Positions 5,026 to 21,500 of a stretch of 64,000 bases of DNA are shown here, piece after piece. Source of the DNA: a virus; the IMG/VR virus record IMGVR_UViG_3300020472_000021, positions 1 to 64,000 of that record; one strand, 5' to 3'. Positions within the stretch are counted from its first letter, which is position 1; each line of letters begins with the position of its first letter. Position numbers and translations under genes: made by a program. The notes below the pieces were generated by a model. That model ran no database searches. It saw only the letters and a program-made list of their open reading frames with translations, and was not told where the DNA came from.

Positions 5026-5838
5026 TTATCCGATCATATCCATTGGTGGTATAGCATATTTGGAGAGAACTTCTCCTTCAATCATTCTAAGAGAGGTCAC
5101 ACCATCTTCATATATTTCTTTACCATTAAGATTCATACCGCCTGGTAGTTGAACATTTTGATACTTAATTAAGTTCTGACCCCACTGCTTCTTCATTAGA
5201 GCAGTAGCATATTTTTTAACAAAAGGATCGTTGTATGCTTCAGTAGCATCATTTGGATCAATCATCCTATGACACTCTATCAACAAGTTAGTTCCTACTT
5301 CTAAGAAATCCTTATCAATATCTAAGTATAAACGATCACGACGTTGTGTATATCTAAACTGTTGGAACGAACCATTGTTCAAAACCATATCTAATGTTTC
5401 AAGATATTGTTTAGTCATAAAATAATTTAAGATATCCAATGATCCAAATGCATATAAGTCATTTAAGAACATTCGATACTCTATACCAAATAAGTTAGAA
5501 CGAATAGAGTTACCAACCAATCCATACACTTTACTAATACCAACTACATGAGGTGGTATGGGAATATAATTTGTATCTTCTGACCATGTAGTTGTTACAG
5601 CACCTTCTACTTTAGTAGAATCAGTCTGAGCAGCAAGACGAGTCTTATCGTCAGCAGTTATTGCATGGTACATATAGCACCGTTCCTGACCATTATAGCA
5701 ATTCTCATTAAAGAATTGAAACGTGTCGTCAATAACGTTGTTTACTTGCTCATCGTCGATGTTAACCTGCAACACAGGTTCACCCAATTGCCTCTTGCAA
5801 TATGTTATAAGATCAGCTTTAGATGCAGGTGATGCCAT
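5026..5838 (-). CDS. 13: Neck protein gp13
   Basis: 270 residues (T4 gp13 has 309). It starts with SPASKADLITYCKRQLGEPVLQ and continues into the conserved neck-protein pattern DDEQVNNVIDDTFQFFNE. gp13 and gp14 complete the filled head so that the tail can bind. It is the first gene of a tightly packed gp13-gp14-gp15-gp16 run. A CTAAATA late-promoter-like element lies 25-31 bases upstream, inside a terminator hairpin. Confidence 0.88.
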   Translation of the reverse strand: MASPASKADLITYCKRQLGEPVLQVNIDDEQVNNVIDDTFQFFNENCYNGQERCYMYHAITADDKTRLAAQTDSTKVEGAVTTTWSEDTNYIPIPPHVVGISKVYGLVGNSIRSNLFGIEYRMFLNDLYAFGSLDILNYFMTKQYLETLDMVLNNGSFQQFRYTQRRDRLYLDIDKDFLEVGTNLLIECHRMIDPNDATEAYNDPFVKKYATALMKKQWGQNLIKYQNVQLPGGMNLNGKEIYEDGVTSLRMIEGEVLSKYAIPPMDMIG

Positions 5839-5846
5839 TAGATACT

Positions 5847-5878
5847 AAAAATCCCTTCATACTATTTAGTAGAAGGGA
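5847..5878 (-). terminator. Intrinsic terminator of the upstream gene with a late-promoter core in its loop
   Basis: On the minus strand TCCCTTC pairs with GAAGGGA, extended by TACTA pairing with TAGTA with one unpaired T, and five Ts follow. It should end transcription after the 69-residue gene at 5887. The tip of the stem reads TACTAAATAGTA, so the hairpin contains CTAAATA (5863-5869), the late-promoter-like element placed for gp13. Confidence 0.75.
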
Positions 5879-5886
5879 CTTTATGA

Positions 5887-6096
5887 TTATTCTGCTGGTG
5901 GATTTGCAATGTCTGGAGTGATTGCTGGAGCACCTTCTTCTGGTTTTTCTTCCAGTAATCCCAGTGTTTCTAGACCACCTGTTAATTTTAATTTATATTC
6001 TTTTGCCTTTGCGAGATTCTCTTCGAGTTCTCTTATCTGAACATCAGTCTTTTCGATCTGTTCGGTGAAGTTCTGTTTCAGTTGTGCTGGATCCAT
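5887..6096 (-). CDS. Small coiled-coil protein (69 residues)
   Basis: A continuous charged helix from about residue 5 to 45 with a heptad pattern (QIEKTDVQIRELEENLAKAK), followed by an acidic, proline-rich tail. It was probably retained as a short oligomeric structural or chaperone protein, and lies between the oxygenase array and gp13. It is followed by an intrinsic terminator. A perfect TATAAATA at 6229-6236 lies upstream, within the neighbouring gene, and may serve as a late promoter. The precise function is unknown. Confidence 0.7.
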   Translation of the reverse strand: MDPAQLKQNFTEQIEKTDVQIRELEENLAKAKEYKLKLTGGLETLGLLEEKPEEGAPAITPDIANPPAE

Positions 6097-6102
6097 ATCT
6101 AA

Positions 6103-6645
6103 TCAAGGAATGAAGTTAAAGTTTATTACAAATCTTGGTTTCTGTGTAGGTTTGCTGCTTGCGTGAAAACGTAAACCATCAAAGAATACACATCTACCTT
6201 TCTCTGGTGATACGGTATTATTTATACCATATTCTCCCATCGGATCTCCGTACCTCTTTTCACTGAAATACGTGTCTCCGTCACTATCGGTTGCATAATA
6301 TAAGCATACCATATGATCCTCTGGTATGTCAACATGCATTTGATCATATTCATTTTCCCTAACTCCAGGAGTTTGAAGAAAACATCTTCCACGTATGACT
6401 TTAGAAATACTCACATTAGCATTATGACATGCTTCAAATACTAAAGGAAGAAGTAATCCACTATACTTACTACAAGATTTTCCATCAAGTAGAAACATAT
6501 GAGAGAATCCTACTAACTGACTATCACCATCTTCTACTAAGTTATCATGATACACCCATCTAAAATCAGTATCAAACCTTAGAGTTTCTTCTATAAGGTT
6601 TTGATAATTTGGATTGATGCAATCATCTTTAATAATGCTCTTCAT
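6103..6645 (-). CDS. 2OG-Fe(II) oxygenase-like protein (sixth of six)
   Basis: A 180-residue protein with the double-stranded beta-helix signature of 2-oxoglutarate and Fe(II)-dependent dioxygenases. H104-V-D106 (QMHVDIPEDH) and H161 (FHASSKP) fit the iron triad, and R171 follows ten residues later as the likely 2-oxoglutarate contact (KPRFVINFNF). Such enzymes hydroxylate proteins, lipids, nucleic acids or small molecules. It is the most downstream of six overlapping genes of the same superfamily; its start lies 17 bases inside the upstream gene. The substrate is unknown. Confidence 0.78.
   Translation of the reverse strand: MKSIIKDDCINPNYQNLIEETLRFDTDFRWVYHDNLVEDGDSQLVGFSHMFLLDGKSCSKYSGLLLPLVFEACHNANVSISKVIRGRCFLQTPGVRENEYDQMHVDIPEDHMVCLYYATDSDGDTYFSEKRYGDPMGEYGINNTVSPEKGRCVFFDGLRFHASSKPTQKPRFVINFNFIP
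6229..6236 (-). promoter_or_regulatory. T4-type late promoter element TATAAATA
   Basis: Perfect TATAAATA on the minus strand within the last oxygenase gene, 133 bases before the 69-residue coiled-coil gene. Confidence 0.45.
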
Positions 6646-7297
6646 CTGGACCCTCTACATTCCAAGCAATATTTCCAGACACAGTTGTTCTTTCTTTATC
6701 AGTAGACCTGAATGGATATACAGCATGATAAGTTGTTGATGGAAATAAAAGTATAGTACCGTTCCATGAATTATCTACTGGTAATACTTCCTTTTCTAAT
6801 TGAAATGTTCCATCACTATGGAAGGAATTTCTTTCTTCTGGTCCATATGGTATATCTACAAATATAACAAAACTAGCAATACCAGAATGGATATGCATTG
6901 GATTATATTCATTCTTTTTCTGATAGTTAACCCATAGATTATGTAACTTTAAAAATCTAGTTATATCTTTGCAACTATGGAACTCCCATGGACATGTAGT
7001 ATAAACATCATTCCAAATTGGTCTGACTAAAGATAATAGATAAGGTTCTAATGTCGGACATTGTAATTTCCATTCACCTAAACTTGATTGTTGGTTTAAA
7101 GCACCAGCTAATCTATCATTCATATTCCATACTTTATCTTTTCTTCTTATCCTTGTATACTCCAAGAGAGGATAGTATACATCTGGTGGTAATTTTGTTG
7201 CAACAAAATTTAAAGTTGATTGACTATGAACCTGAGCATCACCATAGTCTTTAACATGATGGTTAGGATTTTCTATATGTTTCTGTTGACTATTCAT
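6629..7297 (-). CDS. 2OG-Fe(II) oxygenase-like protein (fifth of six)
   Basis: 222 residues from the ATG at 7297, which overlaps the previous stop. The segment NPMHIHSGIASFVIFVDIP (H135 and H137) followed by ILLFPSTTYHAVYPF (H191) and R203 resembles the 2OG-FeII_Oxy_5 group, where the first metal motif reads HxH. Only one of the two first histidines needs to be a ligand. It has a long N-terminal helical part compared with its neighbours. The substrate is unknown. Confidence 0.78.
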   Translation of the reverse strand: MNSQQKHIENPNHHVKDYGDAQVHSQSTLNFVATKLPPDVYYPLLEYTRIRRKDKVWNMNDRLAGALNQQSSLGEWKLQCPTLEPYLLSLVRPIWNDVYTTCPWEFHSCKDITRFLKLHNLWVNYQKKNEYNPMHIHSGIASFVIFVDIPYGPEERNSFHSDGTFQLEKEVLPVDNSWNGTILLFPSTTYHAVYPFRSTDKERTTVSGNIAWNVEGPDEEHY

Positions 7298-7790
7298 AAT
7301 ACAAATCCGCACTTAAAGAATATCGTTTTTCATCTTCTGTTCCTTTACCTGCCATGTGTGGTAAGTTTGATGGAAATATAAACCATGTAAATAATTTCTT
7401 TGGTAAGTGATATGGATCATAATTTGGCATAGGAAACTCAGCAGTTCCAGATGATCCAGGTAGTCGTAAATACATTATACCAGATAGAGTGTATGGATTC
7501 TCTAAATTATGAGCGTGCATATATGGTTCTTTTGAATTTGATTTCCAATCAACATATATCCATGAACTTATTTTATAATCAAAAACATTCATATCCCAGT
7601 ATCTAGAACATGAATCGTAATAAGATAATCTCAGTTTTTCAATCACTGGATTTTGATAATCTAAAAAATTATCCTCAGTCTTTGCAACAATAGGATTATC
7701 TTGATACTCTATATTATCAATAAAATTTATAAGAGTATCTACCTCCTCATTATCTAGTTCACAAGAATATTCTCTAATACCTAATACCAT
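7290..7790 (-). CDS. 2OG-Fe(II) oxygenase-like protein (fourth of six)
   Basis: 166 residues. YMHAHNLENPYTLSGIMYLRLP (about residues 90-111, with H92 and H94) followed by WFIFPSNLPHMAGKG (H145) and R156 matches the 2OG-FeII_Oxy_5 pattern of a first HxH motif followed by SGxxYL. It overlaps both neighbours by 8-10 bases, so all copies are likely to be translated from one mRNA. The substrate is unknown. Confidence 0.78.
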   Translation of the reverse strand: MVLGIREYSCELDNEEVDTLINFIDNIEYQDNPIVAKTEDNFLDYQNPVIEKLRLSYYDSCSRYWDMNVFDYKISSWIYVDWKSNSKEPYMHAHNLENPYTLSGIMYLRLPGSSGTAEFPMPNYDPYHLPKKLFTWFIFPSNLPHMAGKGTEDEKRYSLSADLYYE

Positions 7791-8362
7791 GTTCTTGACT
7801 GACGACTATTGATGTGTGCATGAATTTCAGGAACACAAAATGAAAATGCTACTGTAGTTCTGTAACCATTACCAATTAAACTATTTGGTGAATGACCTTT
7901 GTGTTCCCAATTAGATGGAATGAATACACCATTGTTAGGAATATATGGTGTGTAATGAAGTTTGCCATCTGGACTCTTACATACAAACTCACCACCCCAC
8001 TCATGATTCCACTGCATTTGGTTAAACAATATAAATGTCCATACCTCATCCAATGGATAATCTTTATGGAACAATGAGTTCTGTCCAGGAGTCTGTCCAT
8101 TTGCATGAATCTTACACAACTGAATATCCTTTTTAAGAATCTTCATCATCTTAAGTCTTACTGTGGTAGCACATTTAACAAAGAACAAATCAGTTCTTAA
8201 AGGATGTTGCCAAGATACAGGATCCCCTTTACCATATGATGCATTGTTAAGTGTCCATATAGCTAGACTATTTACAGCAGGTTGAGTACGGTCAAAGTAT
8301 TGCCAAAGACCTTCAAACTCTTCTCTACTTAAGACAGCTTCAATGACTTTAGGTTCGTTCAT
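7781..8362 (-). CDS. 2OG-Fe(II) oxygenase-like protein (third of six)
   Basis: 193 residues from the ATG at 8362, which overlaps the previous stop as ATGA. The iron triad is likely H99-K-D101 (LFHKDYPLDE) and H154 or H157 (NWEHKGHSPN), with R168 as the 2-oxoglutarate contact. The WGGEFV segment between them is typical of prolyl-4-hydroxylase-type folds. The substrate is unknown. Confidence 0.78.
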   Translation of the reverse strand: MNEPKVIEAVLSREEFEGLWQYFDRTQPAVNSLAIWTLNNASYGKGDPVSWQHPLRTDLFFVKCATTVRLKMMKILKKDIQLCKIHANGQTPGQNSLFHKDYPLDEVWTFILFNQMQWNHEWGGEFVCKSPDGKLHYTPYIPNNGVFIPSNWEHKGHSPNSLIGNGYRTTVAFSFCVPEIHAHINSRQSRTWY

Positions 8363-8925
8363 TTGCCCCACCATAACCATCCTGTAATAATATATTTCTC
8401 ATGTTCCTCCGATATTTGTCCTCTGTGTTTATGAGTTAATCCAGCAGGAAATAAAACTGTATTACCTTTCTTTGCTTGCACAGTATAATTCTGATAATAG
8501 AATTCAGTTCCACCATTAGGAACATCATTCAAATATGTAATAAAAACAAAAGCTTTATCACAACCATCTAAACCAGATGCATCTACATGCCATGTATAAA
8601 AACCTTCACCAGGTTTATAATACTGTATCTGTGGTAACTGCTTCATTGTAAACTCTTGGTTTCCAACTTCTAGTAATTGTAAGTATTCATTTATAAAACC
8701 ATCTAATGATTTTGAATATTCATCATATTTAAAGTCACTTGGTTTTCCAAACTTTCCAGCATCAGTTATAGAGAAATCGGTACTCTTCTTAATATCTGGA
8801 ATGATACTTCCACCACCGACTCTACCAGCATATGTCATCTCACCTTTATCAGCTATGTGAAAAAGCTCTATGAGTTTATCACATACACTAGTATCTTCTA
8901 ATTGATATTCGTTAATAAAATTCAT
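8359..8925 (-). CDS. 2OG-Fe(II) oxygenase, prolyl-4-hydroxylase type (second of six)
   Basis: 188 residues from the ATG at 8925, overlapping the previous stop as ATGA. The pattern is clear: YKPGEGFYTWHVDAS with H113 and D115, then LNDVPNGGTEFY, then FPAGLTHKHRG with H165, and K177 where prolyl-4-hydroxylases place the lysine that binds 2-oxoglutarate. This is the best-defined oxygenase of the set, and it is full length for a phage P4H domain. Confidence 0.85.
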   Translation of the reverse strand: MNFINEYQLEDTSVCDKLIELFHIADKGEMTYAGRVGGGSIIPDIKKSTDFSITDAGKFGKPSDFKYDEYSKSLDGFINEYLQLLEVGNQEFTMKQLPQIQYYKPGEGFYTWHVDASGLDGCDKAFVFITYLNDVPNGGTEFYYQNYTVQAKKGNTVLFPAGLTHKHRGQISEEHEKYIITGWLWWGK

Positions 8926-9512
8926 TTGTATGGTGGACCTTGTACCCATCCTACTAAGGATTTTCTACACCCAGAAGTAACTTCTCTTACTCTATGCGGT
9001 GTATCACTCATGAATATTATAGCATCCTTTTTCTTTAATGGAATAATCTTTTTCTCATCTACTACCATTTCAAATTCACCACCTTCAAAATCATCATTCA
9101 ATAGTATAGTAAAACTAAGTTTACGTATTCTATTATTCTGTCTCTTACCTTGCATCCAATTAGATTCATCTATATGCCAATCATAGTAACCACCCTTTTC
9201 ATATACAGTATCTTGCATAGGTTCTATAAAATCAATATCATAATTCCATTCACATTTTCTATTAGCAAAATCAAGAAACCCATCTACTAATCCATACAAA
9301 CGTTCATCATCTATAAAACGAGATTTTGATTCTCTATTTACTTTATCGAGTTCTCCTTTATTTTCTAAACCTTCTACTTTAGAAGATTCATAATCATCTA
9401 TAGGTTTACTTTCACGATCTGTACCTTGACATTTTTTAAGTTGCCTTTCTATAAGATCAAAATATTCATCTTCCATATTGATGATTATATATTGGTGTTT
9501 AAATGAATTCAT
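8922..9512 (-). CDS. 2OG-Fe(II) oxygenase, PKHD-hydroxylase type (first of six)
   Basis: 196 residues from the ATG at 9512, overlapping the stop of the U32-methyltransferase gene as ATGA. YEKGGYYDWHIDES carries H113 and D115, LNDDFEGGEFEM is the typical central strand, FMSDTPHRVREV carries H173, and R183/K184 follow. Phage PKHD-type proteins are common in cyanophages, and their targets are not known. An acidic and basic insert at about residues 30-70 is longer than usual. Confidence 0.85.
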   Translation of the reverse strand: MNSFKHQYIIINMEDEYFDLIERQLKKCQGTDRESKPIDDYESSKVEGLENKGELDKVNRESKSRFIDDERLYGLVDGFLDFANRKCEWNYDIDFIEPMQDTVYEKGGYYDWHIDESNWMQGKRQNNRIRKLSFTILLNDDFEGGEFEMVVDEKKIIPLKKKDAIIFMSDTPHRVREVTSGCRKSLVGWVQGPPYK

Positions 9513-11263
9513 TTTTGACACACCATTATATGTACACCATTCCACCAACCATTAGGATCCTCTGGAACACCAGTTAATATCTTACGATCAAACATAACTT
9601 TAATATCATTTTCTTTAATCCATATATTTGCTGACTCTACCACACCCATAAAGTTAGCATCATCTATTACTATTATAAACTGATCATCCATAATTGTATA
9701 GAGATAAGTTAGATTATCATATTGCTGTTGTGGATCATGATCAGCATCATAGAAAATAATATTTGCTTTCTTATTCTCCATAGTATGTTCATCACGAATA
9801 ATATTAAAGTCTGCTTGAGTTAGATCTTGAATACTTTTCTCATGAAAAACTTGATTCTTTTTCATACCTTTAAAGAATGCACCTTTAGGATTATTCATCT
9901 TAAATCCTTTATGTCCATATACTTTACCACCACTATCCCAACTATCTTCTTCACGGAAGGGAGCAATATCTTCTTCTGAATAGTTATCAACAGCAAACGC
10001 TGGTATATCTCTATCCATTGTTGCAGCAAAGAATGTACTACCAGCAGCAACACCCAATTCTAAATACACAGCATCTTCTTTAGAACATAAGTTATTAAGA
10101 AAATGTCTAATAATATTTGATGATAAACCTTCGTAATTATATCCTTCTGGATTGAACTTACTATCTCCTCTTGCTGCCTTATCAATAGAATTAAGAACTA
10201 ATTCTATATCCTTGTCCATAGTTCTTTCATTCTTCTTCATCCTAGAATGAATAACTGAATCACAATAATTACAATCCCAACAATCAAACTTACATGTCTT
10301 AATCTTATCTCTCCAGATATCAATTGGTTTCTCTTGTAATGTAGTATCTTCAATATACTCATTGAACTGAGGAAATAATAATTCTTCATCACTATCCCAT
10401 CGCTTAATGATCTCCATTGATTCCATTAAACGCATAGCATTTTCTCTACCATGCATCTTGAATACATCTATACCAAGATCAATAAACTCTTGCCAATCTT
10501 CTTTCCATGGAGGTAATGCTGCTTGCTTTAAAGCATTAGCTGGATCTTTCTCATCCCAATTAGAACATGACACTCTACTAATAGAATCATTAAAATACTG
10601 AGGATCATCTTCTCCTCTTTCCATATTATAATGATAGTGTTCTGGCATGATCGGACATCCACCCCAACACCACTCATTAGCAAGGAGTGATATCTTGACT
10701 GGTTTACCTATCTCAGCACAATATTCTTTTGCTTTTTTAATTCTTAGTAATTGATCATGATCTCTCATTAGATCGCGATCTAAATTAATATAATTAAATC
10801 CTGCCTTTGCTAGATTAACTATCTCATTTGCTCTTGTTACTTCTCTGAGTATAGTATTTTTGATATAAAGTTCTGGAAACTCTTTCTGTATTTGTCCAGT
10901 CAACATCCATGTTGTATGAGGTAACGTAACAATACGAACACCCATATCATATACTGCTTTAAAATTCTCAATAAAAAGATTCAAATTCTTTTGATTAGGA
11001 AGAACCTGAATATTATTAAATGTTGCTGATAATGGAATACCTGTTTCTTGAGAAACATAGAGAGCATTGAATGTTGTCTCTCTCATATCCCCATCAATAG
11101 TATCCCCCATTGCGTCTTGAACGAATGGAGGCATCCGACATGTAAAGTATATGTCGTAAATATGTTTCTTATACTGATTAAGGAACGGTATAAAAGTTCC
11201 TGTTACAAAATCTTCAGGAAGCTTTGTATTCAGTGGGATCGAGAACCTTTGTACCATATTCAT
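9509..11263 (-). CDS. U32-like TIM-barrel Fe-S protein fused to a SAM methyltransferase
   Basis: 584 residues in two parts. Residues 1 to about 340 resemble the peptidase U32 family (TrhP, RlhA, UbiU/UbiV): a barrel-like series, LREVTRANEIVNLAKAG (139-155) like the family's RELS..EI motif, cysteines at 199, 203 and 233, and FKMHGRENAMR (268-278) like the family's KIEGR motif. A cysteine knot CKFDCWDCNYC (324-334) follows. Residues from about 395 form a class I methyltransferase: LELGVAAGS (401-409) as motif I and FYDADHD (504-510) as a downstream acidic motif. U32 members carry Fe-S clusters and perform hydroxylations of tRNA, rRNA or quinones. No peptidase catalysis is implied. It heads the six-oxygenase array, and its start overlaps the upstream gene. 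The substrate is unknown. Confidence 0.62.
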   Translation of the reverse strand: MNMVQRFSIPLNTKLPEDFVTGTFIPFLNQYKKHIYDIYFTCRMPPFVQDAMGDTIDGDMRETTFNALYVSQETGIPLSATFNNIQVLPNQKNLNLFIENFKAVYDMGVRIVTLPHTTWMLTGQIQKEFPELYIKNTILREVTRANEIVNLAKAGFNYINLDRDLMRDHDQLLRIKKAKEYCAEIGKPVKISLLANEWCWGGCPIMPEHYHYNMERGEDDPQYFNDSISRVSCSNWDEKDPANALKQAALPPWKEDWQEFIDLGIDVFKMHGRENAMRLMESMEIIKRWDSDEELLFPQFNEYIEDTTLQEKPIDIWRDKIKTCKFDCWDCNYCDSVIHSRMKKNERTMDKDIELVLNSIDKAARGDSKFNPEGYNYEGLSSNIIRHFLNNLCSKEDAVYLELGVAAGSTFFAATMDRDIPAFAVDNYSEEDIAPFREEDSWDSGGKVYGHKGFKMNNPKGAFFKGMKKNQVFHEKSIQDLTQADFNIIRDEHTMENKKANIIFYDADHDPQQQYDNLTYLYTIMDDQFIIVIDDANFMGVVESANIWIKENDIKVMFDRKILTGVPEDPNGWWNGVHIMVCQK

Positions 11264-11465
11264 CTAGAACTTTATTAATAAATAAACCTTCGTTGTCACT
11301 ATGTTCTATCAAGAGATTCTTATTCTCCTTACAGATTTCTCTGAGTCTTACTCTATCTAAATCCTTGTCTTTATTTTCAAGATTATACTTTTCGTACATC
11401 ATGAAATGTATGACAGGTAGAAGCTCATCATACCTCTCTGCATCAGCGTGCCAAACACCTGCCAT
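11214..11465 (-). CDS. Hypothetical protein (83 residues)
   Basis: A charged, helical protein starting MAGVWHADAERYDELLP; the N-terminus is aromatic and acidic, the remainder rich in Lys, Glu and Asp. It ends about 50 bases inside the U32-methyltransferase gene. A CATAAATA late-promoter-like element lies 38 bases upstream of its start. It could be the first gene of a late unit that includes the oxygenase array. The family is not recognised. Confidence 0.65.
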   Translation of the reverse strand: MAGVWHADAERYDELLPVIHFMMYEKYNLENKDKDLDRVRLREICKENKNLLIEHSDNEGLFINKVLDEYGTKVLDPTEYKAS

Positions 11466-12344
11466 CTATTTCTCCCCCTCTTTAAATTGTAGCTGTCCTG
11501 TATATTTATGCGCCTCGAACTTAGGCATTGTTATACCTTCCGATTCTATCTGTTGTTGTATAGCAGGAGCGAATGTTTTATTTAACTTATCCATACCACC
11601 ACCAACGAGAGCAGAGAATTGTATTGCTACTTCTAAACATTTAACTTGATCCTGTTCTGGCATATCCAAAATAGAAGTCATGTTACCAGTAGATATTCTA
11701 CCATAGGATACAATATCCATAGCAGCCTGTTTGCCCATACGAGCAATCCAGTATACTCTTTCTTCATCTTCTTGTTCTTCCAAGAAATACTCTAATGGAT
11801 GTTCATCATCAACATTCTCATTAACAGTTTTCAAGAAATGTGTCATTTCAATTTCTGATTGACGTAGTTTCCTTTTCCAGATACCTATGTCATAATCATT
11901 CTTTTCTAAATCAATCTGGATAAATCCAGCATCAATTTCATCTCCACCATCTGCCTCTAAATTTTCAAGAGTACGAATGAATTTCTTTCTAAGTAATTCT
12001 GCTTTTCTAAGACTATGCCTATTTTCCATATAAGCATGATACCTTGTTTCTAGTTCCATCAATGCTTGACGAACCTTTCTCCATGGAGTCAGTTGCATAT
12101 CAATAACAAAATGCTTGCTTTGATATTCAGTCATACCGCTATTGAAGCGCATACTCCCTTCTAAGATATCAAAATCTTTCTTTGAGAAATTAAATTCCTC
12201 AACGAAAGACTTAGCTAGATTTATCTCTCCAGTATCAGAACTGACAATGTTATTAACATCAGCAATAATATCAGACAACTCTGCGTTGTAAGATAATCTT
12301 GAATTTTTTGGATCAGTGTTAACTAATTCAGAACTTAAAGACAT
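11466..12344 (-). CDS. Hypothetical protein (292 residues), paired with the next gene upstream
   Basis: A soluble, mostly helical, charged protein with no transmembrane segment. The central part (about residues 95-125) is a long basic helix. Near the C-terminus it has ITMPKFEA, which resembles IMMPQFQA in the protein encoded just upstream, so the two may be distant relatives. It overlaps the upstream gene by 17 bases and abuts the next gene directly. It could be a virion or assembly protein, since it lies beside fibre genes. No family is recognised. Confidence 0.7.
   Translation of the reverse strand: MSLSSELVNTDPKNSRLSYNAELSDIIADVNNIVSSDTGEINLAKSFVEEFNFSKKDFDILEGSMRFNSGMTEYQSKHFVIDMQLTPWRKVRQALMELETRYHAYMENRHSLRKAELLRKKFIRTLENLEADGGDEIDAGFIQIDLEKNDYDIGIWKRKLRQSEIEMTHFLKTVNENVDDEHPLEYFLEEQEDEERVYWIARMGKQAAMDIVSYGRISTGNMTSILDMPEQDQVKCLEVAIQFSALVGGGMDKLNKTFAPAIQQQIESEGITMPKFEAHKYTGQLQFKEGEK
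11503..11510 (-). promoter_or_regulatory. T4-type late promoter element CATAAATA
   Basis: CATAAATA on the minus strand, 38 bases before the ATG at 11465 and inside the C-terminal codons of the 292-residue gene. It could launch the 83-residue protein, the U32-methyltransferase and the oxygenase array. Confidence 0.5.
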
Positions 12345-13143
12345 ATGCGTCTACCTCATACTCTGGTTTTCGATCCCAGTCAGTATCAGATTTAGTGCGA
12401 CCCATTTCAATTGCCTGAAATTGAGGCATCATAATACCGATGTGATCTTCATATAATGTATTTAGGTCCCATACAGAGTCGGCATCTTCAAACTTTTTCT
12501 TAAGTTTTTGATACGTAACAAGCATAGTAGACAGTTTATCTTCATAAGATTCTGCCTTAGTTAAAATTTTATTGGATAAATCTGTTTTGTCCAGACTTCT
12601 TTCTGTAGCAAGATAGTCAAGGAATGGAGTCTTACTTCCATTCTTACCTTTTTCTCTCAACCATTCTCTTGCTTCATGCTTCTGTATTTCCCAAGAAGCA
12701 GTTTCTAATTCTGTTGTGTCTGTTAGATTTTTAATTCTTACATTAAATTCATCATCAATAATCTCTACAGCAAAGATAGTCATGAAATCAGTAATTTCTT
12801 TTTTGATTTCATCTGTCAATTCTACTGGTACTTTAAGAACACCACCAGCAGGAGTCCATGCTTGAGCAACACCTTGATGGTTAACAGTTGCCATAACCTT
12901 ACCAAAAGGTCTGACTTCTGAGAAGAAGTTAGATCCATTAAGTGCTTGCTTTTTAGTAACTTCTTTATACTTATGTTCCCACTCTTTAGAGATAACTTGG
13001 AAGATGTTTTCACTTACTTCTACACATGCAAAATGCATCAACGAAAATATTTCGTTGTAATGAAGTCTTGAATCAGCTGTCTCAGCAATATTGACATACT
13101 GCTCAGGCTTGATTTCTTTTTCGTTGACGATTAAGTATCTCAT
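12328..13143 (-). CDS. Hypothetical protein (271 residues), paired with the gene downstream
   Basis: A soluble alpha and beta protein with a beta-rich first half and a helical second half. It carries IMMPQFQAIEMG near its C-terminus, like the ITMPKFEA of the 292-residue neighbour. It starts four bases after the stop of the 428-residue structural protein, so it is probably made late with the fibre. No family is recognised. Confidence 0.7.
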   Translation of the reverse strand: MRYLIVNEKEIKPEQYVNIAETADSRLHYNEIFSLMHFACVEVSENIFQVISKEWEHKYKEVTKKQALNGSNFFSEVRPFGKVMATVNHQGVAQAWTPAGGVLKVPVELTDEIKKEITDFMTIFAVEIIDDEFNVRIKNLTDTTELETASWEIQKHEAREWLREKGKNGSKTPFLDYLATERSLDKTDLSNKILTKAESYEDKLSTMLVTYQKLKKKFEDADSVWDLNTLYEDHIGIMMPQFQAIEMGRTKSDTDWDRKPEYEVDAYVFKF

Positions 13144-13146
13144 TGT

Positions 13147-14433
13147 TTATTGTGCGTATCTAGCTGTAACAGATGCTGCTGCTGAACAGCAACCACCTGA
13201 TGATTGTCCATAATGTCCTTTAGGTCTTGTAGAAGCACCCATATTAGTCTCAACGTCAGTTGAATAATCCCACTTAGTAGTGTGGTTGTTCTGCTGACCA
13301 TCATATTGTCCCATCATATAACCCCAGTCCTGACCCATCATCATGTTCTCTTCTCCATAAGAACGAACCTTAGATCCATTCTTAATACCAGATCCTGAAG
13401 AACCATTGTACTTAGTCCAAGGAGTTGTAACGTTGTTACCAGTTCCGCAATAGAAGTGACCCCATTTAGAAGGAAGTGGTTTACAAACTCCGTCAGGAGC
13501 AGCAGATGAAGACCAACCACCCCAACTATCGTTAGAATGATTACAGTAATATCTGTTACCTGAGAATGAAGCCCATGTTTTATCTTCATCAGCACATGAA
13601 GCAGTATGGTCATTACCAGAAGGTGAGTTACCTGCCTGATACATGATTTCTGAAGGGAAGTGTAACTTACCTACAGCAGAGTTACCTCCACCCAAGTTGT
13701 ATCCATGCTGTTGTTTTTGTGCAGATGCACATGAGTTTCTGTCTCTGTTAACAGGCATGTTCCAACCACCAACAGTACCATAACCCATGATTCCTCTTGG
13801 GTCATCTCCTTCCCAACCGTAGTTGTGAGGTGAATATGTACCACCACCAGGGTTACTACCTGATGTACCAAACATTCGTCTCATTCCAGTATGGAGGTTG
13901 ATCGAAGATGTGTGGTTTGATGATCCAGTAAATGAGTTAACACATCCATGACCATACCCAAAGTAATCACTCCAAGTAACATCAGCATATGTTAATGCAC
14001 GGTCAAGTTGTTCACCACAATAGAAAGTAACGTCTGTAGCGTGCCAAGTTTTGTTTACTGTTCTCCAAGGATTAGATCCTTTGTATCCAGCAATCAGATA
14101 ACCATGTGTTATCAAACTTCTATATCTAAACCCAGTCAAGGGTGAAGAAACAGCATTGTTCTGGCCAGGATATGCCCAGAAAGTTCCGTTCTCTCCATCA
14201 GATACTAAGTAAGCACCTCTAGTTTCTTCAGTTGTGCCTGGTACACCACCTCCTACATCATCCCATTCAGAACCACTCCAAATTTGTGCTTTCGCATCTG
14301 TGGAGTTCCAAATCATCTGACCTATATTAGGAGATGCAGGTCTACTGCCAGCAGCAAATGATGGCAACTTCAAACCTTGTGTGGCTAAAGATGCATTACC
14401 TGTGACAACAGTTCCAACTGTTAACTGAGACAT
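13147..14433 (-). CDS. Putative fibre or surface virion protein rich in Gly, Ser, Asn, Trp and Tyr
   Basis: 428 residues. The N-terminus LTVGTVVTGNASLATQGLKLP and the segment RPASPNIGQMIWNSTDAKAQIWSG are typical of short cyanophage fibre proteins that attach through an N-terminal beta domain (the pattern of the 'GxMxYNTxTxxxExWxG' repeat). The rest is rich in aromatic residues and glycine with about ten cysteines, which suggests a stable globular tip, possibly with disulphides. A CATAAATA late-promoter-like element lies 23-30 bases upstream. A receptor-binding role is likely, but it is inferred from composition and location. Confidence 0.65.
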   Translation of the reverse strand: MSQLTVGTVVTGNASLATQGLKLPSFAAGSRPASPNIGQMIWNSTDAKAQIWSGSEWDDVGGGVPGTTEETRGAYLVSDGENGTFWAYPGQNNAVSSPLTGFRYRSLITHGYLIAGYKGSNPWRTVNKTWHATDVTFYCGEQLDRALTYADVTWSDYFGYGHGCVNSFTGSSNHTSSINLHTGMRRMFGTSGSNPGGGTYSPHNYGWEGDDPRGIMGYGTVGGWNMPVNRDRNSCASAQKQQHGYNLGGGNSAVGKLHFPSEIMYQAGNSPSGNDHTASCADEDKTWASFSGNRYYCNHSNDSWGGWSSSAAPDGVCKPLPSKWGHFYCGTGNNVTTPWTKYNGSSGSGIKNGSKVRSYGEENMMMGQDWGYMMGQYDGQQNNHTTKWDYSTDVETNMGASTRPKGHYGQSSGGCCSAAASVTARYAQ

Positions 14434-14820: not shown

Positions 14821-15576
14821 TTAACTGTAATTGTATACAATAACGCAACCGCCACCGCCGTTGCTATTATCATGAGCAAAACTATTCTGTGAATAGTATC
14901 CATGACCACCACCAGAACCCCACTGACCATGAGTAATTTCCTCTTGGTTGTTATAATAATGGTGTGAAGAACCAGCTTTGTGCCAGAAACTAGAACCAGC
15001 AACTCCTTCATTGTTTGAACCGTGAGTCATTTCACCACCACCGCCAGGTAAGTTTATATCACCACCTGAAGCATTTCCACCAGGTCCGCCCTGATGAGGT
15101 ACATCTGATTGACCACCTTGTCCACCACCAGCAGTACAGTAAGATCCAAAGGAAGATGTACCTCCCGAACCACCTCTACCACCGTTACGAGCATAACCTC
15201 CTCCACCACCATATGTGTAGCTGACAGAGTTTACACTAGAAACATCAATCCATTTGATAGCAGTAGCTCCACCGCCACCTCCAGCACCACGATAAGTGTT
15301 ATCATTGACTCTGGCCCCGCCACCACCACCAGTTACATAAACTAAGACGTGACTACATCCAGAGGGTTTTGTCCAAGTACCAGAACCACCACTGGTGGAT
15401 TTAGAGTTCCAAGTACCATTCTGTGAAGTATAAACATTCATACCCAACAACGATCCAGTAGATGCCATTGCAGTATAACCGCTTCCATTCCACAGTCTCA
15501 AATCATCATTTTGCAGATCCATTATATTAACTCCTGCGGAGTTTTGGATCTGGTCTACTTTTAATATTCCAGCCAT
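14821..15576 (-). CDS. Glycine-rich tail fibre tip / adhesin-like protein
   Basis: 251 residues. The N-terminus MAGILKVDQIQNSAGVNIM is a common cyanophage fibre attachment sequence. From about residue 66 the protein has GTWTKPSGCSHVLVYVTGGGGGA, the start of a glycine-rich domain, followed by at least six poly-glycine blocks separated by variable loops. Glycine islands with variable loops are the design of the gp38 adhesins of T4-like phages that determine host range. A perfect TATAAATA late element lies at 15612-15619, 36 bases upstream. Confidence 0.75.
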   Translation of the reverse strand: MAGILKVDQIQNSAGVNIMDLQNDDLRLWNGSGYTAMASTGSLLGMNVYTSQNGTWNSKSTSGGSGTWTKPSGCSHVLVYVTGGGGGARVNDNTYRGAGGGGGATAIKWIDVSSVNSVSYTYGGGGGYARNGGRGGSGGTSSFGSYCTAGGGQGGQSDVPHQGGPGGNASGGDINLPGGGGEMTHGSNNEGVAGSSFWHKAGSSHHYYNNQEEITHGQWGSGGGHGYYSQNSFAHDNSNGGGGCVIVYNYS

Positions 15577-15585
15577 ATTTCCTCG

Positions 15586-18500
15586 TTATACGATAGCCCA
15601 GTTACCACCACTATTTATAGTGACCGTGTAACCGTTTGCAATTGTGATCGGACCTGCACTGACACAGTTTGTGTTAGCAGGTATTGTTACGTTTTCAGAA
15701 ACTGTGTTTCTGTTAGACTTAAAGATTCCATAAGTATCAATCCACATCGTATCACCATTGATATAACCAATGCCTTCAAAGTTAGAAGTACCACCAACAT
15801 GTAAATCATATGATGGGTTTGCTTTGTTTATACCAACCTTAGATATTCTATGGATATCATTTCCGTTAGAAGATTCTGTCCAACGTGACGTAACGAATTC
15901 AGCATTGTTCTGGAAGAACTGACCGTTAAGGTTCATATCACCTTGTACGGTTAACTGATAAGTTCTTGCAGTGTTGTTGTTTGGATCAGTACCAGAGTTT
16001 GTAGTAGTGTTAATAGAAACTCTATTATTACTACCATCAACAGCAATTGCTGGTGTAGTATTCCAAGTTGTTCCACCGTTATCAGTAGATGCTTGAATTG
16101 CAAAGAAATGGTTACCTACTGTCTGGTTACTAACTCTGAAGTTTCTATAAGAAGAAGAACCACGTAGGTTTATTCTTGCACCAGAGTTATCATCATCCTG
16201 ATCAATGTTAAGTGTACCAGTAATCATTGCAGTACCAGCAACTTCTAATGCGAAGTCTGGTTCACGGTTGATACCAACACCTAAGTATCTAGATGCAATA
16301 ACATCACCAACAACACGTAAATACAGATCTGATTCTGTACCTTCCATGGTGAATCCTTCACCATACTCACCAGCTGGTGATGCTGAATCTGCATGGTTGT
16401 ATCTAAGAGTACCAATTTGAGAGTAACCACCAGTATGGTCGGAGAATCTAATTCTTGCACCTGTAGCAATAGCATTGGTTGCTGATTTAAGGAATATACC
16501 TTCATCACTACGAAGATCAAGAGCAGCAGAAGGAGAAGTACCTACGTTAATACCAACTCTATTAGCACTTGCATCAACAAATAGAACTCCAGCATCAACA
16601 TTCAAATCATTACTTAGAGTTGTAACTCCAGTAACACCAACTGTACCACCGATACTTAAGTTAGAAGATCCACCAGCAAGTGTTAGTGAACCAGTCATGG
16701 TATCACCAGTCTTCAATACGTTAAGTGATGCAGCACCTGATAATGAACCAGTAATAGTACCAGCAGAGAAGTTACCTGAACCATCTCTCTTAACAGCAGT
16801 ATTGGCAATGTTATTAACTTGGAAAGTAATATTACCTGCGTTCCATACAGTAGCACCATTAACTTCTAAACCATCAGCATTAGCAACTTTAACTTCTAAT
16901 GTACCAGAACCATCAGTTGTAGTACCACCAGCAGCAATCAAAGCAACGTTGTAGTTTGATGCAGCAGATGCAGAAGAGTTGAAGTAAACAGCAGGACTAG
17001 ATGCTTGACCATCCTTTCTACCAAGTCTTAGTTTTGCAGTACCAGAATCACTCTCAAGTCTAGTTACCTCGAAGGTGTTATCATCTTCAATAGTAAAGTC
17101 TTGGAATGGAACTCTGTTACTTGCAGTACCAATTGTCAGAGCACCAGTAAAGTTACCAGAAGTTAATCTACCAATTAGAATACTGTAATCATTGAAGTTA
17201 TCATTAACATCATCGTTAATAGTAATAGCATCAATTGTGTAACTACCAACTGCCTGTGCGTTAGCATTGTATAGGTTAACTGGGTTACCTGGTGTGAATG
17301 GTGAACTGTTAAGGATTAAACCTTGTACATAAATCTGATACTTAGCATCACCATTAAATGTCTTGACTACTAATCTATCTTGATAAGATCTAGGACTAAT
17401 GAATCCTGGTAGTCTGTTATCAGACATAATACCAGAGTTCAAGTTGTAAGCATTCTGATACCAATCACCTTGTCTATTATCTAATCTGTCAGCATCAAGA
17501 TCTGAATCTACACCATCGTTAAGTGATGTCCAAACCTTACCCCATGAACCGAATGTAGAAACACCTGTACCAGAACCTCTCATCCACATGTTGTCATTAT
17601 CTGTGAATGCAAGTTGTCTAATACCACCGTAAGTAGCATCGAAACCAGAACCACCATTTCTGATAGTCATAACTAGGTTTCTAGTACCACCATCTGAAAG
17701 ACTGTTAGCACTGTTGAATACTGTGTTAGCGATAACACCTTCAACGAAGTTGTTTGGAGCAGGGTTTGATGTGGGGTTGTTAGTACCTGTGATCAAACGA
17801 ATTGTATTCTGAGATGAACCAGAAATACTAATGTTATATGTACCAGATAATCTATCAGTAGGTAATGTACCAGAGTTCTGGTTACCAGAGTTTAGATAGA
17901 ACGCACCTTGAGCACCGTCAAGAAGGTCAGCATCTAATCCACTGTCAGCACCAGTTTTAAGTACAACAGAACCATTACCTGCTAAACCAATATCAAATTG
18001 TGATTTCTTATATCTCGAAACACCAATAGTACCGTAGAGGTCAGCAGAAATTGTTTGATCTGTAACTCTCTGAACGTCAATAGCAACGTTAGCATACTGT
18101 CTATTAACAGTACTTACCTTAGCCTCTAATACAAGACCAGATCCAGTACCTATTGCTGTTGGAGCAACTGTAATTGAGAAGTCAGCACTATATCCTGAAC
18201 CACCGTTAGTTACAGTTACATCAGTTACTGCGTTACCAGATACAACAAAGTTTGCCTTTAGATCAACACCTGATCCACCTGTTAGAGGAATATCGTAGTA
18301 TTGACCATTAGTGTATCCAGAACCACCATTAGAAATGATGACATCATCAACAAAGTTACCTTGAGTATATGTTGACTCGAAGGTCACTGGGGAAGCACCC
18401 CTTTCAAATTCAATAATCGTACCAGAAGCAATAGTCTGGTTGATTGGATTGTTGATTGCAACTGTAGTTAATCCACCAGCAGTTACAATACCTGTAATAT

Positions 18501-21500
18501 TTGTGTTTGCCTGTATTCCATTAACAGTATTCTTAACCTCGTGACCAATCAGAGCATTCTGGTTTGTTTGGAATATCAGTGAGTTAGTTCCACTAGTTGC
18601 CTGTGAATATAATTGAGCAAAGTATCTATTTTCTGCACCTTTCAATGATTGCATTGCAAGTGCATAGTTCTGGTCACCTCTTAAGAATGTGAAGGAGTTA
18701 GCAGCACCACCTGATGCCAATCTGTCTGTTTCAATAACACCAGATGTAATATCAGCAGCAGCAATTTGGTTAGTAGATAGTGATACCCAGTTAGCAGCAA
18801 GAGAACAAGATGTGTTAACAACACGGTTAATATTAACTGTATTAGCAGTTGGTGTTGTACTATCGTCGAATGTATCGGTATCTTCAATCTTAAGCTTGTT
18901 AACAATAGTACCATATACTCTACTTTCAATTAAGCAGTTACCTTGTGCTTGTGTTCCAGCTCCTGGAGGAGCAGCGAATGTGATTGTTGGAGCAGTAGTA
19001 TATCCTTTACCACCAACATATCCATTAAAGTCAATAATGGTAGCAGTAACAACTTCACCGTTAGCAATAGTACATGTAACAGAAGCAGCAACCGCACCAC
19101 CACCAGGATTACCTCCTGAAACTGTGACAGCAGGAGCAATTGTATATCCAGAACCAGAGTTAGTAACGTTTACTGTATAAACAACACCAGTTCTATATTC
19201 AGTAGACTGAATACGACCACCAGATACACTACCTTCAAATATATCTCCAATAGTAAATGCTAGGTTGGAATCAAATGCAAATCCTAAGAACAGACTTGTT
19301 AGGTCATTGTTCAAGATGAAGGACTGTGAAGTATCCTGCTGAATCGCAATGTCACCAGCAAGTGCTCCCTCTAGTGCCAATCTTTCTGGTTCGTCAGCAA
19401 CAGTGTAAACACTGAATGGTCTCAAAGCAGGAATCTGGTCAACAGATATCTTACCTGAGTCTGTTAGTTCAACCAATGCTCTTGGAACAGCGTTCGTAGA
19501 GTATGGCTTGTTAATGAATGGACCTAAGTTATTTGTAATGTAATCTTTAACTGCCTTCTGAGTAGGTAGTTTAGAGTCAGATGCGTTTGCACCACCCAAT
19601 GTGTTGGAGTCATCGAATCCAGTAACAACAACGTCACCACCTTTCAGTTTCAAGAATTCAACTTCAGAGATCGTAACCGTACCAGTGAAGGTAATGTTAC
19701 CAGTTCTGTTCTCAATTCTAGCGAATGTACCAACCTTGAAGTCTCCTAGTTCGTCAGTACCAGAAACATATACACGACCATAATTCTGTGATACCTGTTC
19801 GTTTGCTTCGATCTTAGTACCACCGTTCTCAGGTAGAGCAAGGTAGTTAGTACCAGATCCAGCAAATTCCCATGTATGAGATGATGAGTTAACAATAGAT
19901 GGTCTGTGTAGGTTGATAGTCTTACCAAGTAATACACTTGTTGAAACTGCGTTACCAGTAGATACATCAGTCAGATCCATTCCACCACCAGTACCATCAT
20001 CAATGGTTAACTGAGCAGAGAAAGGAGGACCAACGGTAACTGCTGAAACTACATCAACAAAGTATTCAATTTCAGTATTAGTATTGGTATAACCATTAAT
20101 CTTAACAACGTAGTGCTCTAGTGGTTCTCTTCCTAATCCACTAACTGTAAGAATTGTTCTACCAGTAGGTGTAGAAGATACGTTAGAGATAGTTGCAATA
20201 TCAAATACGTATGGAGTAGCACTAAATCCAACACCTCTTAATGCATACTGACCGAAGTTAGTAGCAGAGTTAGTAATAGATGCATAACCACCAGACTCAC
20301 AAAGAACACCATCTGCACAGAAGATAACGAATACAGAAACCAACTGAACATAACCATCATTGATAATCTTGTATCCAGTACCACCAAAGGAAACGATAGT
20401 GAATGCAGATGCAACCATCGACTTACCCTGATTAGGATAAGTTGCACTACCATCTAACTCTAGTCCAGTAAACGGACAGTTAGGTTGCTTAACCTTAGCA
20501 CCATCAATAAATGCACCATTACCACCTAAGAAGGAGATAACAGAAGAGTTCTGAGTATATGGAGATGCCTCAATGATTGGATATTCATCATAGTCAGAAC
20601 GAACAGCAGATCTAACATTGTTAGAATCATAGATGTAACTATCTGGATATGATGTTAATAATGCAGTATCATATAAAGTACCTGTTGTTTGTGTAGTTGC
20701 ACCAGGAAGGATTGTTCCATCTAAGATGTCTTCTAACAGATCCATTTCTGTAGCAATAGAAGAAGCAATGTTAGCACACTTAGGAGTACCACCTGTGTAT
20801 AGAGTAATGTTCCAATCTTCGTACTTAGGAATTGGAGAAGTAGTTACAACCTGATCGTAAACGATAACAATACCATTTGCTAATCCACTTACGAATGCGT
20901 GTGTAGAAGCACTAGCAGATCCAGCAGCACCTACGTTACATGTAACAGTGGTATTACCACCAGCAGATGATACGTTAGTAATTTCAAGTGATTTACCATA
21001 TGCTTTCTTATCAGCAGCAACTCTTCTTGGATAAGAGTGCTCAGTAGCATTACTATCTACATCACAAGTAAACTTAAGTGCGTTCTCTCTAAATGCAATT
21101 CTATGTGATGTCTTAACTGCCTTAGAAGGATCTGGGAATGTTACTGTTAAATTACCAGTAGATGCTGTGTAAGTAGCAGCATTTGCTGTTCCAACATGAG
21201 GAACATTTGAAGCAGCACCAACGTTAACAGTAATAGTTGTTGCGGTTACTGCACTAATAGCAAGAGTTGCTCCAGATGCAGGGTCAGTTGCTCTTGGATA
21301 AGCATGGTTTGTAGAGTTAGCATCTAAGTCACAAGTAAATGTAACAGCACCATTTGCGATCTGTACAGTGTTACTTGTTGTTAAACTATGAGATCCAATC
21401 TCCAATACCATATCACCAGATGTAGCATTGTAAGTTGTTCCAGCAGCTGCTGTGACAGCACTACCAGCATTAGGAGTAATTCCTCCAGCAGTTCCACTTA

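Follow-up and report, generated by a model that had tools for sequence, protein, structure and literature searches.

In a 64-kb window taken from a 67-kb IMG/VR record (IMGVR_UViG_3300020472_000021), we found that six overlapping genes of the 2-oxoglutarate (2OG)-Fe(II) oxygenase type, here termed P1 to P6, form a stable but modular set that is conserved across related contigs and is located in what appears to be a late receptor-binding unit of a T4-like cyanophage. The phage type is indicated by the plastocyanin, neck, baseplate and giant fibre genes of the window, and the phage matches of the protein encoded immediately upstream of the run (P7, a fusion of a U32-type domain with an O-methyltransferase) were cyanophages exclusively. 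Our preferred, though still tentative, reading is that the cassette may act as a hydroxylation, and perhaps O-methylation, module on the phage's own receptor-binding proteins.

Six overlapping oxygenase genes and their active sites

The run reads on the minus strand from 9512 to 6103, in the order P1 (8922-9512, 196 amino acids), P2 (8359-8925, ~188 amino acids from the ATG at 8925, in an ATGA overlap), P3 (7781-8362, ~193 amino acids from the ATG at 8362), P4 (7290-7790, 166 amino acids), P5 (6629-7297, ~222 amino acids from the ATG at 7297) and P6 (6103-6645, 180 amino acids). With sequence-fitting ATG starts, consecutive genes overlap by 4 (P1/P2), 4 (P2/P3), 10 (P3/P4), 8 (P4/P5) and 17 bases (P5/P6), and the P7 gene overlaps P1 by 4. 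The open reading frames (ORFs) and their overlaps agree with the original prediction, which had described six genes at 6103-9512 overlapping by 4 to 17 bases; the run is confirmed as real, chance or miscalled ORFs being excluded. A clear Shine-Dalgarno sequence was absent from the 20 bases before each start codon of the run, which, together with the overlaps, makes translational coupling its likely mode of translation. Through such overlapping stop and start codons, the six oxygenases would be made in step, downstream of the P7 fusion.

P1 and P2 (both PF13640/phrog_61) and P5 (PF13759/phrog_81) matched Pfam above the curated cut-off, at 56.9, 43.5 and 42.2 bits, respectively. P3 and P6 (PF13640) and P4 (PF13759) remained under it, at 18.2, 22.3 and 21.8 bits, the match of P4 spanning just 27 residues, and these three were matched by PHROG profiles (phrog_274 for P3, 7.9e-17, and P6, 2.2e-35; phrog_81 for P4, 1.5e-9). 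P4 was chosen for AlphaFold modelling as among the weakest by Pfam, and its model (pLDDT 66, pTM 0.72) best matched prolyl-hydroxylase-like proteins of the double-stranded beta-helix (DSBH) fold, including 3bvc (Z 13.8), PHD2 (Z 12.4) and the P. putida prolyl 4-hydroxylase (P4H) that was crystallised with EF-Tu. The matches to the PF13759-like 3bvc and 2rg4, to PHD2 and to bacterial P4H spanned nearly its whole length. For P4, the structure check that had been suggested with the prediction thus came out in favour of the oxygenase assignment, this weakest member of the run being modelled as a DSBH protein. The assignment of this fold rests on the model for P4, on Pfam matches above cut-off for P1, P2 and P5, and solely on sub-threshold Pfam and PHROG profile matches for P3 and P6. 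Among solved structures, the P1 profile matched 9ghl, a PiuC-type PKHD hydroxylase (1.1e-6), and the P2 profile 3itq/5hv0, a bacterial P4H (4.5e-7), while PDB sequence searches with the P3, P5, P6 and P7 profiles returned nothing useful. The NCBIfam equivalog cut-offs for YbiX/PKHD were far from reached, and on these matches we regard P1 and P2 as profile relatives of PiuC and P4H, without claiming that they are those enzymes.

All six proteins had been predicted to carry an HxD or HxH motif, a distal histidine and a basic residue for 2OG. In alignments of orthologs from other contigs, the HxD...H iron triad was invariant in P1 (H113xD115, H173), P2 (H121xD123, H173; 196-amino-acid ORF numbering), P3 (H105xD107, H160; 199-amino-acid ORF numbering) and P6 (H104xD106, H161), as was the basic residue after the distal histidine in all six (R183 in P1, K185 in P2, R174 in P3, R156 in P4, R208 in P5 and R171 in P6). 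P4 (H92, H94, H145) and P5 (H140, H142, H196; 227-amino-acid ORF numbering) instead bear an invariant HxH without a carboxylate ligand, in place of HxD/E...H. The predicted motifs are therefore present and invariant, but those of P4 and P5 depart from the 2-His-1-carboxylate triad. Because the usual carboxylate ligand is missing, 2OG use is less certain for these two, which are better described as PF13759-type DSBH proteins, and the conservation of their HxH residues argues for function. The four HxD members would be O2- and 2OG-dependent, whereas the two HxH members probably have a modified metal site.

The six proteins are highly diverged from each other. Pairwise BLAST among them was near noise (at best 25% over 120 amino acids, P1/P2), and profile-profile comparison of P3 with P6 and of P4 with P5 was also at noise, despite the PHROG shared within each pair; together these results rule out a fresh tandem duplication. 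Several of the six are clearly closer to other cyanophage oxygenases elsewhere than to their neighbours in the run. The six represent distinct, long-established families drawn from the oxygenases of cyanophages, in line with the earlier view that they are not fresh duplicates. We also rejected a host-genome origin, as a genome scan gave only two contigs of metagenome-assembled genomes with P7 homologues. These contigs (L197 and L198, named Euryarchaeota and Dehalococcoidia; L198 also carries P1/P2-like genes) are probably mis-binned cyanophage DNA.

A conserved but modular array with a U32/O-methyltransferase fusion

Relatives of the run were gathered by one scan with the P7 protein and two scans with oxygenase alignments, yielding well over 100 IMG/VR contigs. 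All six genes were found in the same order in 23 distinct IMG/VR sequences, so that the run is conserved as an ordered set and does not dissolve into random single copies. The ratio of nonsynonymous to synonymous substitutions (dN/dS; NG86, against L006) was ~0.07-0.19 for all six, demonstrating purifying selection on every member. In nine of the 23 sequences, P2 and P3 are separated by an additional oxygenase gene, OX7 (PF13640, 30.6 bits), which brings the array to seven. In more distant relatives the order is U32-methyltransferase (U32-MT, the P7 gene)-(OX8)-P2-OX9-(P6), OX8 belonging to PF13759 and OX9 to DUF6445, and a 192-kb record (G001) has two PF13759 genes upstream of U32-MT and a phrog_274 gene downstream. 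Single members (OX7, OX8, OX9, a second PF13759 gene and speD) are thus added, lost or replaced while the rest are kept, and one contig, L007, holds a divergent P4 (63%) between closely similar P1/P2 (91%) and P6 (97%), indicating that alleles are exchanged singly.

Other features were noted in these contigs. A speD-like gene (S-adenosylmethionine decarboxylase, by eye) is inserted between P1 and P2 in L028 (7818-8195), and a gene for a 346-amino-acid multi-helix membrane protein lies between OX9 and gp13 in L056 (10154-11194). L048 and L007 are mosaic, with recombination breakpoints in or near U32-MT and around P4, respectively.

This modularity bears on the suggestion that the run, with U32-MT, encodes a pathway of six or seven oxidation steps. 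Six enzymes acting in order on one compound, each on the product of the previous one, would suit an array whose order and translational coupling stay the same in 23 distinct sequences, but relatives acquire, drop or exchange individual members without loss of the rest, a single oxygenase follows the same U32-MT in most isolates, and L007 combines its divergent P4 with close P1, P2 and P6. We therefore give a linear pathway very little credence. Independent enzymes with separate targets fit the one-by-one turnover better, and each oxygenase would most likely hydroxylate a site of its own.

P7 (9509-11263, minus strand; phrog_1458/T4-GC354) comprises 584 amino acids, with a U32-type domain at ~2-279 and a class I O-methyltransferase domain at ~361-584; in the records viewed, this 'U32-METHYLTRANSFERASE' gene product is deposited as 'hypothetical protein'. 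In its structure model (pLDDT 75; low at 198-205 and 223-248), the N-terminal domain matched the U32 protein Mk0906 (5d88; Z 14.8, 223 residues, root-mean-square deviation 3.7) and the C-terminal domain matched TomG (Z 16.4), with COMT, MycF and TrmR at 15-16, which upholds the U32-methyltransferase label given to it from the sequence. The Methyltransf_24 profile was found in 23 of 25 P7 family members (best 4.9e-8), and Pfam Peptidase_U32, a profile that can miss distant relatives, matched none of the 25 even at E up to 1. Across 30 sequences, C42, C182, C199 and C203 show little or no variation, and their layout (C42...C182-x16-C199-x3-C203) is like the CXnCX12CX3C of UbiV, though with X16; in UbiV this kind of layout was shown to hold [4Fe-4S] (PMC6747719). 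A second invariant cysteine cluster, CKFDCWDCNYC (residues 324-334; C324, C328, C331 and C334), is situated between the two domains and possibly forms a further metal site.

The U32 proteins UbiU/V, RlhA and TrhP are tied to hydroxylation that is independent of oxygen or depends on prephenate, and the TrhP product is methylated by TrmR (PMC6599085), from which it is reasonable to infer that P7 may hydroxylate and then O-methylate in one chain, and so place and methylate a further hydroxyl. P7 shares with UbiU/UbiV, RlhA and TrhP the U32 fold, and its cysteine layout is UbiV-like, but it differs from them by its O-methyltransferase fusion, its four further invariant cysteines at 324-334 and its lack of recognition by the Pfam U32 profile. 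The fusion of a U32 [4Fe-4S]-type domain with an O-methyltransferase, usually flanked by oxygenases, is new here.

The likeness to TrhP and TrmR could also point to nucleic acids, as RlhA and TrhP are needed for rRNA and tRNA hydroxylation and TrmR O-methylates ho5U, a chemistry that the fusion mirrors (PMC6599085); the TrmR structure 5zw3 matched P7 at Z 15.4, and a DNA-repair role has been suggested for the oxygenases of the cyanophage Syn9 (PMC2984593). Still, we regard nucleic-acid modification or repair, whether AlkB-like DNA repair (as Weigele/Clokie proposed of Syn9), base modification of DNA or modification of RNA, as rather improbable, since the genes occupy a late structural location, none of the six matched the AlkB or TET/JBP families, TrmR is one of many equal methyltransferase fold matches, and there is reportedly no evidence for modified nucleotides in cyanomyoviruses (Clokie 2010, PMC2984593). 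The sugar O-methyltransferases MycF and SpnH matched the P7 methyltransferase domain about as well as COMT types did, and P3/P6 showed a weak NCBIfam match to a FlmC-family oxygenase. Taken together with the position of the block in the host-recognition region, these matches would suit tailoring of surface glycans or lipids, the oxygenases and the U32/O-methyltransferase acting either on the host envelope, on its sugars or its lipids, or on a glycan attached to the virion. We consider this unlikely, because inspection of the window's ORF list turned up no glycosyltransferase gene and no sugar-nucleotide or lipid gene beside the run, and because P1, P2 and P4 most resemble protein hydroxylases.

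A presumptive late receptor-binding unit and candidate substrates

Upstream of P7, also on the minus strand, an 83-amino-acid ORF with no PHROG match (11214-11465) overlaps the P7 start by 50 bases and is preceded by phrog_1409 (11466-12344), phrog_1604 (12328-13143) and phrog_1417 (13147-14433), which by position are T4-GC353-like, T4-GC352-like and T4-GC351 ('sericin 1 precursor-like'), respectively. The phrog_1417 protein has a fibre-like N-terminus and a Gly/Ser/Asn-rich C-terminus, and the next gene (phrog_863, 14821-15576) encodes a gp38-like adhesin with 25% glycine. The order phrog_1417-1604-1409 upstream of U32-MT was kept in 52 of 52 checkable loci. A late-promoter-like TATAAATA, which is retained in relatives, is located at 15612-15619, 43 bases upstream of the adhesin gene; the preceding gene, within whose end this site falls, encodes a 3968-amino-acid fibre-like protein (15586-27492). 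At the other end, still on the minus strand, a small phrog_580 protein (5887-6096, 69 amino acids) follows the run as the last gene before a late-promoter-like CTAAATA (5863-5869), found in 35 of 37 distinct relatives upstream of the gene for the gp13 neck protein (head-tail adaptor Ad2, phrog_211; 5026-5838), where the next late unit starts. These two boundaries place the oxygenases in a presumptive late unit led by the adhesin gene. CTAAATA occurred 7 times on the minus strand against ~9 expected, that is, not above expectation, so that it is informative just through where it lies, ahead of late genes, and through being kept by relatives in front of gp13; a sigma70-like promoter scan found sites no more numerous than in shuffles. 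Further downstream, past the neck genes, a plastocyanin-like gene (petE, 2157-2540) and a NifU-like gene (653-883) were recognized by eye.

A similar neighbourhood was observed in cultured phages. Among 11 U32-MT-bearing isolates viewed, the next gene was of an oxygenase family in nine: phrog_274 in Syn33, Syn19, S-BM1, S-RIM2, S-RIM12, P-RSM1, P-RSM3 and P-SSM3, and phrog_1644 in S-CAM4. S-ShM2 has its oxygenases upstream of U32-MT, and P-HM2 has none adjacent. A gp38 adhesin follows in several of these isolates, and other oxygenase runs (in Syn9, S-SCSM1 ORF240-243 and S-ShM2) also lie beside fibre genes. Fe(II) oxygenases have likewise been listed, with fibre and gp38 genes, among the genes of metaviromic islands linked to host recognition (Mizuno 2014, PMC3909814).

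Hydroxylation of the phage's own proteins is favoured by this location, by the co-expression that it implies, by the relatives of P1, P2 and P4 with solved structures, which are largely protein hydroxylases (PiuC/PKHD, bacterial P4H, PHD2 and P. putida P4H), and by S-SCSM1, in which ORF240-243 bear no virion-protein mark while their fibre neighbours do, as expected of enzymes and not of structural parts. The likeliest substrates would be late proteins of the same or the adjacent unit, namely the gp38-like adhesin, the phrog_1417 fibre-like protein and possibly the giant fibre. Several observations weigh against this assignment. Literature searches yielded no account of phage fibre proteins being hydroxylated; the DSBH/prolyl-hydroxylase fold also occurs in small-molecule enzymes (PolD was among the structural matches of P4); many cyanophage oxygenases are encoded elsewhere, for example in replication regions, so that proximity to fibres is not a general property of the class; and P4 and P5 lack the carboxylate ligand. 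The upstream TATAAATA, moreover, is inside coding sequence, at the end of the 3968-amino-acid fibre ORF, and coding constraint may contribute to its conservation. Finally, the L048 adhesin block is 92-98% identical to that of the window while its oxygenases are just 66-81% identical, indicating that a given adhesin allele does not come with a fixed set of oxygenase alleles. A Mantel (distance-matrix) test of oxygenase-adhesin co-evolution was set aside as uninformative, its correlations mostly falling with physical distance, and collagen-like Gly-X-Y targets, sought as stretches of six or more repeats, were absent from the 16 window proteins scanned.

The fold matches of P4 also allow for host-protein substrates, such as ribosomal proteins, EF-Tu or envelope receptors, whose late hydroxylation would aid translation or block superinfection: the P. 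putida P4H was solved with EF-Tu, and the Syn9 run includes a protein of JmjC_2, a family of ribosomal oxygenases. We find this improbable, as the run is inside a virion-protein unit and a modification made so late would leave host proteins scant opportunity to have an effect. A count with four profiles, to which two Syn9 genes were added manually, gave 6-23 oxygenase-family genes per genome (median 9) across 17 isolates, above the 1-5 usually quoted. Such numbers might suit a published hypothesis in which the oxygenases draw down or respond to 2OG, steering NtcA-dependent expression or energy supply (Sullivan et al. 2010, PMC3037559). This we judge distinctly improbable, since a single enzyme would suffice for 2OG consumption, and since the hypothesis leaves unexplained six diverged, conserved active sites in one late unit, their invariant order by the adhesin-block genes and the U32/MT partner. 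A defence role was rejected, PADLOC having given only a generic CRISPR-associated 2OG model, which is not defence evidence, and an anti-defence role is without support.

The role of the abundant 2OG oxygenases of marine cyanophages has been open since ~2007-2010, DNA repair and nitrogen signalling being the only proposals, and tying a conserved array to a receptor-binding unit and an unannotated U32/O-methyltransferase fusion provides a concrete hypothesis that can be tested in cultured phages by virion proteomics. A broader, and more doubtful, possibility is that T4-like cyanophages possess a modular system for decorating adhesins, in which 1-10 oxygenases and the U32-hydroxylase/O-methyltransferase fusion would place hydroxyl (and methoxy) groups in varying combinations on the phage's own receptor-binding proteins, with members swapped to change host recognition. 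If true, enzymatic side-chain hydroxylation or O-methylation of adhesins would constitute a novel level of control over host range in viruses that are very abundant in the ocean.

Misnamed families and known oxygenase arrays

Oxygenase arrays are hidden in current annotation by the misnamed families phrog_274, phrog_1644 and phrog_2954. The phrog_274 label 'DNA endonuclease V/denV' was rejected, as PF13640/PF13759 matches and an invariant HxD...H...R mark an oxygenase-like family: every Pfam match of P3, P6 and their homologues in Syn9 was to an oxygenase-type model, and of five further proteins labelled 'DNA endonuclease V' that were scanned, four likewise matched such models exclusively and one matched nothing. 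In agreement, denV is described as absent from cyanophages (Clokie 2010, PMC2984593). Instances of phrog_274 are at 6103-6645 and 7781-8362 in the window and at 18899-19417 and 20022-20606 in the Syn9 slice (L199). The labels of phrog_1644 ('minor coat protein', in part DUF6445) and phrog_2954 ('ferrochelatase') look wrong as well, these proteins having HxD...H motifs and being encoded within oxygenase runs (L199, 15682-16473, 19414-20025 and 20603-21145; L086, 10700-11410).

None of the GenBank phages of the collection carries the run, no record having covered it at 80%. Bacterial P4H, PKHD (PiuC) and PHD2 are fold or profile relatives of P2, P1 and P4, respectively, the similarity of P1 and P2 being local, in the catalytic core only. 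The T4-GC351-352-353-354-GC100 block of Syn33, Syn19 and S-BM1 (also of S-RIM2, S-RIM12, P-RSM1, P-SSM3 and P-RSM3) shares with the window a gene for a sericin-like protein, two genes without an assigned function, U32-MT (GC354) and, immediately after it, a phrog_274 oxygenase gene; in several of these isolates gp38 is also close by. The block differs in having one oxygenase in place of six, whose label is either hypothetical protein or 'DNA endonuclease V'/'tail fiber protein'. S-SCSM1, with 24 2OG oxygenases in its genome (PMC9602691), has four consecutive (ORF240-243) and three nearly consecutive ones (ORF248/249/251) flanked by fibre genes, but they are of other families and in another place, and a U32-MT match was not reported for it (slices of ~134 of 229 kb). 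In Nanhaivirus ms29, ORFs 213-216 are listed as such genes (PMC10436341).

The closest precedent in length is Syn9 (NC_008296; L199, 15054-21145), in which nine genes of oxygenase families (PF13759, phrog_1644/DUF6445, phrog_81, JmjC_2, PF13640 and phrog_274), gp45-gp53, overlap in an unbroken row downstream of fibre/gp38-like genes; gp54 ('ferrochelatase') also has HxD...H...R, making ten oxygenase-like genes. U32-MT was not found in the 28-kb Syn9 slice, and its run differs from ours in having two tryptophan halogenases (gp41-42) just upstream and another set of oxygenases, not orthologous as a run. To hold a run of six as unique was thus too strong, a longer one being present in a cultured phage. 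The six-gene run described here is new, but it has precedent, and belongs to a known, under-recognised kind of long oxygenase array.

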